Shown one piece after another: positions 1 to 36,962 of a DNA stretch of 38,340 nucleotides. The first letter of the stretch is position 1; every line of letters starts with the position of its first letter. The stretch spans positions 1-38,340 of the forward strand of contig JAGWLP010000006.1 in the NCBI GenBank assembly GCA_028864905.1, in the 5' to 3' direction. The position numbers and the translations under genes were made by a program. Source of the stretch: Gammaproteobacteria bacterium. GTDB lineage: Bacteria; Pseudomonadota; Gammaproteobacteria; Natronospirales; REEB76. The notes beneath the pieces were generated by a model, which was not told the origin of the DNA, ran no database searches, and was given only the letters and a program-made list of their open reading frames with translations.

Positions 1-284
1 GCGGCCTACCCGGAAGCCGTGCGGACCGCACGCGCGGGTTGCCCCGCTGCTTCCCTATTTGGCCTTGCTCCGGATGGGGTTTTCCGTGCCGCGAACGGTT
101 GCCCGTCGCGCGGTGCGCTCTTACCGCACCTTTTCACCCTTGCCTGTGCCTTGCGGCCATCGGCGGTGTGTTTTCTGTGGCACTGTCCGTGGGCTCGCGC
201 CCCCCAGGCGTTACCTGGCATCCTGTCCTGTGGAGCCCGGACTTTCCTCTGCGCGTAAGCACAGCGGCTGCCCGGCCGGCTCCG
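1..284 (-). ncRNA. rnpB: RNase P RNA (bacterial type A), 3' part truncated by the window edge
   Basis: Reverse complement contains the conserved GAGGAAAGTCCGGGCTCCACAGG, the GGTAACGCCTGGGGGG-like segment, AAGGGTGAAAAGGTGCGGTAAGAGCGCACCGCGCG and GGAGCAAGGCCAAATAGGG...GGGTAGGC. It lies next to rsmI, as in Pseudomonas-type gene order. 5' end is approximate. Confidence 0.95.
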
Positions 285-17778: not shown

Positions 17779-18030
17779 ATGAATATCGTCCGTGAAGTTC
17801 CTGCCTAGCCTCAAACGATGTCCGGATGCCCGCTCAGCATCGGATCACGTCGTTCTGATCATCTTCCGCCAGCAGGACGGGGGTCTGGTTGTGGTCAATC
17901 ACGCTCAAATTCCTTCAGGGTTGACGTGGATAGTGTGACGGTCCCATGGAGGCACAACGGGGAAACCCATTGCTGTGGGCCCACCACAGTATCCGGGTCA
18001 GCTTTTTTCTCCGGGCAAGCCGGGGGGCAA

Positions 18031-18059
18031 TTGCCGGACCCCTGACCTTGCTTTATAGT
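18031..18059 (+). promoter_or_regulatory. tRNA-Pro promoter (-35 TTGCCG, 17-bp spacer, -10 TATAGT)
   Basis: TTGCCG at 18031-18036, TATAGT at 18054-18059, followed by a GC-rich discriminator and the tRNA at 18071. Confidence 0.6.
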
Positions 18060-18070
18060 ACGCGGCCTCG

Positions 18071-18147
18071 CGGGGTGTAGCTCAGCCTGGTAGAGCACTT
18101 GGTTCGGGACCAAGGGGCCGCAGGTTCAAATCCTGTCACCCCGACCA
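18071..18147 (+). tRNA. tRNA-Pro (anticodon CGG), CCA encoded
   Basis: CGGGGTG...CACCCCG acceptor stem, CTTGG-TTCGGGA-CCAAG anticodon arm, GGTTCAAATCC T-loop, ACCA end. Confidence 0.97.
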
Positions 18148-18420
18148 ACCGCTGCCGCTTCTCGCTCACTGAATCATCCCTGATGAGTTATCCGGCCGGT
18201 ACATCCCTGTACCGGCGTTCGGGCCAACCGGAATGCCACCGGCATTCCGGAAAATCCACGGCCCTCACCCTGTCACCCCGACCAGTCGACTGAGCATCAC
18301 GCTCACAGAACCATCCCTGGTAACCCACCGGCCTTGCCATCCATGGCAAGGCGCACGGCGTGATTGAACAGCCACTGGCTGTTCAATGAAATCACCCGCC
18401 GCGCCCTGTCACCCCGACCA
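18132..18420 (+). repeat. tRNA-Pro 3'-end tandem repeat array (136-137-bp period; two complete units and the start of a third)
   Basis: CCTGTCACCCCGACCA occurs exactly at 18132-18147 (within the tRNA), 18269-18284 and 18405-18420. The two complete spacers carry three collinear hairpins: 18173-18184/18310-18321, 18195-18216/18331-18352 and 18228-18250/18363-18387. Confidence 0.93.
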
Positions 18421-18439
18421 GTCCGTTGGGTACCGCGCT

Positions 18440-19171
18440 TTACGCAGCGGCGGCGCGCGCCATGCCCCAGCCGGTGATCGCGTAGCGGCCCTGTGATGCA
18501 AACGGGCTCACATAGCTGACGTGATGCCACATCGGCACCTCGAACAGCGTCAGGGAATTGAACGTCGGCATGAACGTGGCGATCACATGCTCATGCCCGT
18601 CGGTAAACTGCAGCAATCCGCCCCAATCCGCACGCCAGCCTTTAGTGAGGTTCAACACGTAGGCCACACGCCGGTTTTCCTTGTCGATGATGTCGTTGTG
18701 TGAGGTCAGAAAGTGGCCGGGCAGATAGCGCGTCGCCTGGGCCATGGCCATATGGATGTCCGCGATGCCCGTGACCCCGCGCATCAACCCCAGAAACGCA
18801 TCGGAATTGATGAACTCCAGCACATGATGCAGGACCAGCCCCGGATCGCGGTGCTGCTTGTAGGCCTCCACCATCTTGTAGCTGTTGTAGATGAACCGGA
18901 ACTGGCGTTCCCCGATGGCGCGTGCCTGCGCCTTGTTTACCAGGGCCAGCCAATCCTGCTGGCGGAATCCGGCAATCTCCTGTGCGCCGAGGAAATTAGG
19001 TCGCTCGCCATCGGTAAACGCGATGCCCCACGGCACCTCATGGGCAAGACATGCGTACAGGCGTTCCGCCGCTTCCGGGAGCAATACGTCATGTATCTGC
19101 ACACGGCGCGACCCTGCAAAATTCTTTGCCCAATGTCCCACATCCAGTCTGGGATTCAGCATCGCCCGCAC
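18440..19171 (-). CDS. 2-oxoglutarate/Fe(II)-dependent oxygenase (prolyl 4-hydroxylase-like)
   Basis: HND...D (HNDIIDKENRRVAYVLNLTKGWRADWGGLLQF), distal His in WHHVSYVSP and Arg in GRYAITGW form the 2OG-oxygenase HxD...H...R pattern. Confidence 0.85.
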   Translation of the reverse strand: MRAMLNPRLDVGHWAKNFAGSRRVQIHDVLLPEAAERLYACLAHEVPWGIAFTDGERPNFLGAQEIAGFRQQDWLALVNKAQARAIGERQFRFIYNSYKMVEAYKQHRDPGLVLHHVLEFINSDAFLGLMRGVTGIADIHMAMAQATRYLPGHFLTSHNDIIDKENRRVAYVLNLTKGWRADWGGLLQFTDGHEHVIATFMPTFNSLTLFEVPMWHHVSYVSPFASQGRYAITGWGMARAAAA

Positions 19172-34597: not shown

Positions 34598-34616
34598 TGG
34601 CGGAGAGAGTGGGATT
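34598..34616 (-). repeat. Exact 19-nt copy of the tRNA-Ser(GCT) 3' end, 184 bp downstream of the tRNA
   Basis: TGGCGGAGAGAGTGGGATT at 34598-34616 equals 34782-34800 inside the tRNA gene (minus strand AATCCCACTCTCTCCGCCA). Confidence 0.93.
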
Positions 34617-34781
34617 ACTCCGGGCGTCCTGCCCTTCGCCCTGCGGGCCAGCGTCGCTACGCGCCGCTGTTCAAAATCGTTCCAGACAATTTTGTCGAAC
34701 CTGCCCGATTGTCATTCGTGGGTTCGAATCCGCCCTTGAGTATGAACGAATCGGGGATGGCAAAGCTCCCTCACTGATAAT

Positions 34782-34875: not shown

Positions 34876-35058
34876 GTACGCAATTTCCTGTCGCCGGCCA
34901 GTGCCGGATGCCATCCCCGCTGCCCGCAAGGAAATACCACCGGCATTCCGCTCGCATCAACAGCTGAGATCGGCTACACCGTTTCGCTGCAAGCGCAGGC
35001 TCGCGGCCGGGATGATACCGACCTGACCGGGACCGGTCAAAATCGAGTAGCGGAACGC

Positions 35059-35259
35059 TCAGCTATCCGCGGGCGGAGCCTGCGCGGCATTTTCATGCTC
35101 GTGCTTGATGCGCTCGTAGATTTCTTCGCGGTGCACGGCGATGTCCTTCGGCGCATTGACGCCGATGCGCACCTGATTGCCCTTGACTCCGAGCACCGTG
35201 ATGGTGACGTTGTCGCCGATCATGATGGTTTCACCCACCCGACGTGTGAGAATCAGCAT
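35059..35259 (-). CDS. csrA: Carbon storage regulator CsrA/RsmA
   Basis: [51 protein letters not shown]. Confidence 0.98.
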
Positions 35260-36734: not shown

Positions 36735-36962
36735 CCCTCCTTTGCAAAAGGAGGGCTCGCTGTTTTACGGTGAGCGGGCTGCCAAGGACGGCAGCCCTGG
36801 ACTTGCGGGCGAAGCAGAAATGCGCAGCCCGCAAGGGGGAGGATTTTTTCAAAATCCCCCTTCTTTCGCACTTCGCAATCCTGCTCCGTTTGAAAGTCCA
36901 GGGCAGCCATCCATGGCTGCCCGCTCGGCACTTCGTGCCTTGCCCCCCTTTTTCAAAGGGGG
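36735..36962. repeat. Dense cluster of seven intergenic hairpins between alaS and lysC
   Basis: Inverted repeats at 36735-36755, 36776-36797, 36802-36835, ~36841-36857, 36901-36922, 36927-36939 and 36943-36962. Confidence 0.85.

Follow-up and report, generated by a model that had tools for sequence, protein, structure and literature searches.

In the window, that is, the whole stretch of 38,340 nucleotides of gammaproteobacterial DNA analysed in this study, the tRNA-Pro(CGG) gene is followed by tandem units, and at the end of each unit the tRNA 3' end is repeated. What these units are, and why the tail of a tRNA gene is repeated between them, is the question raised by this locus. The array units are two copies of a hairpin-rich DNA element of roughly 100 bases, which is dispersed in many gammaproteobacterial genomes. 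The element has apparently not been described previously; nothing relevant on such a repeat was found in the literature. Very probably it is one of a family of small, non-autonomous mobile DNA elements that lack terminal inverted repeats, are scattered through genomes and make long target duplications on insertion. What looked like a local oddity thus turns out to be a widespread mobile repeat.

The array behind tRNA-Pro(CGG)

The tail repeat CCTGTCACCCCGACCA, the last 16 nt of the tRNA-Pro gene, occurs exactly at 18132, 18269 and 18405, in steps of 137 and 136, just as first claimed, and no further exact copy of it exists anywhere in the genome. It consists of the 3' strand of the T-stem, the acceptor strand and CCA, and begins with CC right after the T-loop. 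In element copy E1, the hairpins are H1 (ATCA-tccc-TGAT), H2 (GCCGGTACA-tccc-TGTACCGGC) and H3 (CCGGAATGCC-acc-GGCATTCCGG), the last being enclosed by an outer helix, and the 3' end is CTCACC. Copy E2 has an equal architecture and the 3' end CGCGCC; its stems differ from those of E1 yet are fully paired. The two target copies T1 and T2 align over 43 columns with a score of 42.

The initial annotation had described three hairpins at similar offsets in each unit, and both units indeed have them at those offsets, with complete pairing. The two units are much more stably folded than dinucleotide shuffles: as RNA they gave z = -3.1 and -6.3, and as DNA z of about -5 and -7 on either strand. Repeats, pairing and folding therefore uphold the view that this is a real array with a conserved structured unit. 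The 16-nt tRNA tails in the array are the gene part of target duplications. The third and weaker copy in the window (Table 1) is a 69-nt short variant without H3, located between alaS and lysC. The stretch around this variant holds further inverted repeats.

Table 1. Positions of the array, of the further element copy and of neighbouring features in the window
Feature	Position	Strand	Remarks
RNase P RNA (class A)	1-283	-	cut by the window edge
tRNA-Pro(CGG)	18071-18147	+	ARAGORN; Rfam tRNA 68.4 bits; gene beside which the element inserted
Target copy 1 (T1, 38 nt)	18132-18169	+	16 nt of tRNA tail and 22 nt of flank
Element copy 1 (E1)	18170-18269	+	model R1 100.2 bits, E 6.7e-22 in the window
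Target copy 2 (T2)	18269-18306	+	exact 16-nt copy of the tRNA tail; flank diverged
Element copy 2 (E2)	18307-18405	+	model R1 99.3 bits, E 1e-21
Target copy 3	18405-18420	+	exact 16-nt tRNA tail copy; no element after it
Distant RtT relative	34598-34749	-	full-length match to Rfam RtT, 30.8 bits
tRNA tail copy in the RtT relative	34598-34613		exact, 16 nt
Decayed hairpin sequence	34880-35000	-	between csrA and tRNA-Ser
csrA	35059-35259
Third element copy, weaker	36876-36944	+	model R1 30.1 bits, E 2.2e-5

A dispersed element and its target

A BLAST search with the tRNA and the array against the genomes of the same family returned the orthologous tRNA-Pro loci and, elsewhere, pieces of the spacer that adjoin other tRNAs and protein genes. 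The core is not peculiar to tRNA-Pro(CGG), because R1, a covariance model derived from an alignment of 22 cores, finds it dispersed. The recurring core contains H1 around CCATCCnTGG, H2 around CATCCnTG, H3 and, in the family consensus, a fourth, outer helix around H3, and it terminates in CTC[A/G]CC. The 22-core alignment has 32 pairs in four helices, with 92.5% paired cells versus 27-40% when the partners are slid, and 119 cells with double changes versus 38 in shuffles. Covariation, which had been claimed from the two units, is thus strong across 22 copies, whereas two units alone cannot show it.

Element sizes are about 70, 93 or 100 nt. The boundary profiles are CAnGAACCATCC at the 5' end and CTC[A/G]CC at the 3' end, and they contain no terminal inverted repeats. 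C occupies the last two positions of the element and the base after them in 103-107 of 108 copies. The short variants retain both ends, and none of the copies was recognised as 5'-truncated.

Matches to R1 were found in all 12 genomes of the family, in 14 of the 19 genomes of the order and in 15 of the 369 genomes of a class sample. There are 28 copies in this 75%-complete MAG and 46 in its relative G011. In a phylum sample of 397 genomes, searched with strict filters that lose weak copies, this genome alone matched. The carriers obtained by a pattern scan with R1 confirmation include MAGs of Dokdonella, Rudaea, Acidiferrobacteraceae and Natronospirales. Several pattern matches outside Gammaproteobacteria, such as those in Mycobacterium and Roseococcus, scored below 24 bits and are probably due to chance. 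A search of plasmids with one unit gave no match, and among 2.9 million viral contigs there were two pattern matches, neither of which had the context of the element when inspected by eye.

A tRNA gene lies on the 5' side of the element in 87 of 135 distinct copies (51 beside the 5' end of the tRNA and 36 beside its 3' end) and on the other side alone in one copy, a proportion that could be biased since the loci behind R1 had been collected with a tRNA query. Among class-sample loci, which were found by the model and not by a tRNA query, a tRNA is beside the element in 10 of the 18 fetched. The distances between tRNA and element are mostly 18-31 nt, the long ones stemming largely from arrays, and the neighbouring tRNAs span many isoacceptors. 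Many of the remaining copies are at starts of protein genes such as murG, sucD and sufC (the last assigned by eye from start codons). The 5' end of the element usually faces the gene end. In tRNA genes, the CC at the insertion point is right after the T-loop, in the D-loop (as GG, on the other strand) or adjoining the anticodon loop. Folded targets beyond the tRNA arms were considered but are not supported: the perfect stem around the insertion point (3.8 at tRNA and 3.0 at non-tRNA sites) is not longer than at nearby CC sites (3.6).

The sequence preceding the element, which comprises the end of the gene and some flank, is found again immediately behind the 3' end of the element. The flank-versus-flank score was at or above the 99th percentile of mismatched-locus alignments (41) in 39 copies. 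In most cases, the CC at the 3' end of the element is where the duplicate begins, and the distance from this CC to the start of the model, which is the target length, clusters at 37-41 and 43-49 nt. Because the 43-49 nt class was seen mainly with shorter variants, this suggests that the 5' boundary of the element differs between subfamilies. The best single duplications, with no further element after them, are 36-44 nt long with 86-95% identity (L196, L099, L038 and L086); in some copies, for example L107, L112 and L125, a duplication was not recognisable.

Orthologous sites were compared at two genes. The murG start is single in G009 and G004 and doubled around an element in G007 (about 37 bp), G003 and G002. 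The sucD start is single in G000, G011, G007, G009 and G004 and doubled around an element in G003 and G010. Occupied sites with a doubled target thus contrast with empty orthologous sites holding one copy. The insertion points at murG differ between G003 and G007, so these are probably independent insertions. Duplicated flanks together with empty orthologous sites are an insertion signature, and mobility of the element by insertion is therefore well supported. Among the copies compared, which come mostly from MAGs of different species, neither excision nor a fresh insertion inside one strain was seen.

Beside tRNA genes, in copies without a following element, identity is 95-98% over the gene part of the distal copy and averages 43-48% over the next 18 nt, compared with 36% for unrelated pairs. 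The gene part is perfect (15/15) in 41 of 65. A perfect gene part with a diverged flank counts against simple neutral target duplication, because a neutral copy should decay. This preservation could be due to gene conversion from the tRNA gene, to selection on the copy or to a 5' end of the element that, in some subfamilies, is longer than in the model.

Arrays occur in other genomes also. The one-contig genome G035 has seven near-identical units of 144-146 bp beside tRNA-Met, and because they are near-identical they are best read as products of unequal exchange. The stems of the window units are quite different, so renewed insertion or an old duplication is the better reading there. In Dokdonella, the order is target-element-target-element-target. 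At the G035 locus (L182, 895-2226), tRNA-Met is flanked by the element on both sides in opposite orientations, with the seven tandem units at its 5' end and two at its 3' end, and an rpoD-like gene is close by. Behind tRNA-Pro(GGG) in G001 (L029, 1501-2000), a different unit was observed, which carries an inverted copy of the tRNA T-arm and has a tail copy after it; a second partial unit comes next.

Hairpin stems, enzymes and competing explanations

Stems selected as RNA tolerate G.U but not A.C, and this is the premise of the wobble test. In the H2-H4 stems, there are 85 G.T and 63 A.C mismatches, versus 59 and 1 in the tRNA stems of the same loci. Since G.T and A.C are nearly equal in number, the palindromes are kept at the DNA level, without clear strand preference. 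Either recognition of DNA hairpins or correction of palindromes in the course of replication would have this effect. The earlier suggestion of selection on RNA structure is consequently not supported, the mismatches lacking an RNA-type wobble bias.

The same counts bear on the idea that the unit is an rtT-like RNA gene, in which the tail copies would act as tRNA-type processing signals and stable RNAs of about 120 nt would be released or processing enzymes titrated. The tail copies in the window are exact, and the gene part of copies is unusually preserved, as given above. The layout is also like that at E. coli tyrV, where tail copies occur at +163, +341 and +519. However, the core also flanks tRNA 5' ends and protein gene starts, and what is copied there is something other than a tRNA 3' end; besides, the stems have no RNA-type wobble excess, and the unit has no match in Rfam. 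Hence the processing or titration role proposed in the initial annotation finds no support, and we consider an rtT-like RNA gene improbable.

A different RNA role is suggested by the loops. On the reverse strand, the hairpin loops of H1 and H2 carry CANGGANG, a predicted site that agrees with the published CsrA/RsmE consensus, (A/U)CANGGANG(U/A) (PMC6692469). The element might then be a mobile or domesticated CsrA/RsmA-binding module, the reverse-strand transcripts of which would bind CsrA; such a role would be compatible with mobility. At least one reverse-strand CANGGANG is present in all 135 copies and two, usually 27 nt apart, in 91, whereas shuffles give at least one in 7% and two in 0.3%. 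Most of the classifiable copies near protein genes are at gene starts with the reverse strand in sense, and CsrA was found in 14 of the 19 genomes of the order. On the other hand, neither strand has an excess of wobble among its stem mismatches, the reverse strand is antisense to the tRNA at tRNA 3' ends, including that in the window, and the loop motif would be conserved equally well if a transposase read it. Judged from sequence, such a module is unlikely to be what the element is, and the reverse-strand loops keep open a putative RNA role. Because the loops fit the CsrA site exactly, a regulatory side effect is directly testable. The window itself holds csrA, the binding motif of whose product matches the reverse strand of the element. 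Between csrA and tRNA-Ser in the window lies decayed hairpin sequence (Table 1); in this place, the relatives G002 and G011 have a good element copy at the 5' end of the tRNA (L103 and L117).

Two further explanations concern the way in which the copies arose. In a SINE-type retroelement, reverse transcription of an RNA copy would take place at a nick in the target and yield a fixed 3' end with microhomology at CC as well as a duplication between staggered nicks; a fixed 3' end at CC with a long duplication is a possible outcome of target-primed reverse transcription. The absence of recognised 5'-truncated copies, the retention of both ends in short variants and the lack of RNA-type wobble in the stems argue against it. 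In addition, the reverse transcriptase domain RVT_1 was not found in G006 (99% complete, 19 copies), G011 (97%, 46 copies) or G007, and there is little probability left for this explanation. Serial integrase att scars from larger islands were the alternative raised in the initial annotation, which already doubted that unrelated scars would look like this. tRNA 3' ends are classical integrase targets, and the tail copies resemble att cores. However, a core of 70-100 nt stands at many genes, flank and protein starts included, and each copy repeats the end of its own gene, often with flank, rather than a common element-borne att core. One attP cannot carry all those gene ends; the doubt was well founded, and we regard att scars as highly improbable.

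For insertion of a mobile element, we infer the following course. An enzyme supplied in trans would recognise the hairpins as single-stranded or extruded DNA. The 3' end of the element would be joined at CC (GG on the other strand) in the T-, D- or anticodon arm of a tRNA gene, or alternatively at CC just inside the start of a protein gene, and the 5' end would be joined about 36-44 bp further out. Gap repair would then duplicate this 36-44 bp stretch and leave the gene intact. Tandem arrays such as that in the window would then build up when a further element enters the duplicated target, or when the copies recombine unequally.

As to the enzyme, Cas1 (PF01867) was found in none of the 12 family genomes and in one of the 19 genomes of the order, with 9 of 14 control genomes being positive. 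Y1_Tnp (PF01797) was not found in G001 (100% complete, 21 copies), G002 or G003, all of which are rich in copies; it is present in G012 and G017, where there was no element at E up to 1e-6, and no element was near the searched Y1 loci. Cas1, reverse transcriptase and Y1 transposase were accordingly rejected as movers, as none of them co-occurs with the element. We tentatively propose, as a possibility somewhat short of even, an integrase other than Cas1 with casposase-like action on tRNA arms, which in Gammaproteobacteria would yield duplications of about 37 bp and CRISPR-like element-target arrays; its sites would be those in the T-, D- and anticodon arms and at gene starts. The target rule is well enough defined for a test: CC in a tRNA arm or just inside a gene start, about 36-44 bp duplicated and the gene left whole. 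It indicates an integration activity for which no enzyme has yet been named.

Comparison with known systems

The casposase of A. boonei inserts at the 3' end of tRNA-Pro; its target comprises the T-loop segment upstream as well as the stretch that is duplicated, and casposons can stand in tandem with copies of the target between them (PMC9939771). Similarly, our element has its junction right behind the T-loop, duplicates what lies beyond it and forms arrays that run element-target-element; this is a likeness in architecture only, not membership. Casposase target duplications are 15 bp and terminal inverted repeats are required (PMC9939771), whereas our element makes duplications of about 36-44 bp, has no inverted repeats and also uses D-arms and protein gene starts. 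It differs from casposons and from CRISPR spacer integration by Cas1 also in that its family genomes have no Cas1 gene (0/12).

Like MITEs, the element is small, non-coding, dispersed, palindrome-rich and presumably moved in trans. It differs from them in having no terminal inverted repeats, a much longer duplication and a strict polarity towards gene ends, and an autonomous partner element was not found. Target duplications of MITEs are usually a few base pairs. REP/BIME sequences are extragenic palindromes with conserved loops that are moved in trans by RAYT transposases. The element shares the extragenic palindromes and conserved loops; it differs in its target duplications, and Y1 transposase does not track it. 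To our knowledge, REP insertion does not leave target duplications. The tRNA-targeting retrotransposons of Dictyostelium and yeast likewise use the neighbourhood of tRNA genes as a safe site (PMC5006619). Those are eukaryotic retroelements, and no reverse transcriptase tracks the gammaproteobacterial element.

There is a likeness in arrangement to RtT (RF00391), the 178-bp repeats of E. coli tyrT, in which tandem units stand behind a tRNA and the 3' end of that tRNA is repeated at the end of each. As the initial annotation pointed out, units with tail copies stand behind the tRNA in both cases, and the window array indeed has units behind a tRNA that carry a copy of its 3' end. The two nevertheless differ: the E. 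coli tyrT locus scores at most 9.2 bits with R1, and our element is dispersed and also found at tRNA 5' ends and gene starts. The RtT model had no match in 18000-18500 at E up to 5, whereas the E. coli units reach 133-138 bits with it. Elsewhere in the window there is a distant relative of RtT, directly behind tRNA-Ser(GCT), which ends with an exact copy of that tRNA's tail (Table 1). Its score is below the 45-bit cut-off, with E 2.3e-4 for 261 bases searched. An alignment of this relative, E. coli rttR and similar tRNA units has blocks in common, including GTTCGAC and AAT before the tail copy. Similar-looking RtT-type units were observed behind tRNA-Arg(ACG) and tRNA-Ser(CGA) in relatives (L017, L051 and L054). 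The element family and RtT thus share an arrangement, and the rtT comparison fits the tRNA-Ser locus better than the tRNA-Pro array for which it was made. The element offers a concrete model of how repeats of a tRNA tail, the tyrT/rtT array of E. coli among them, could originate.
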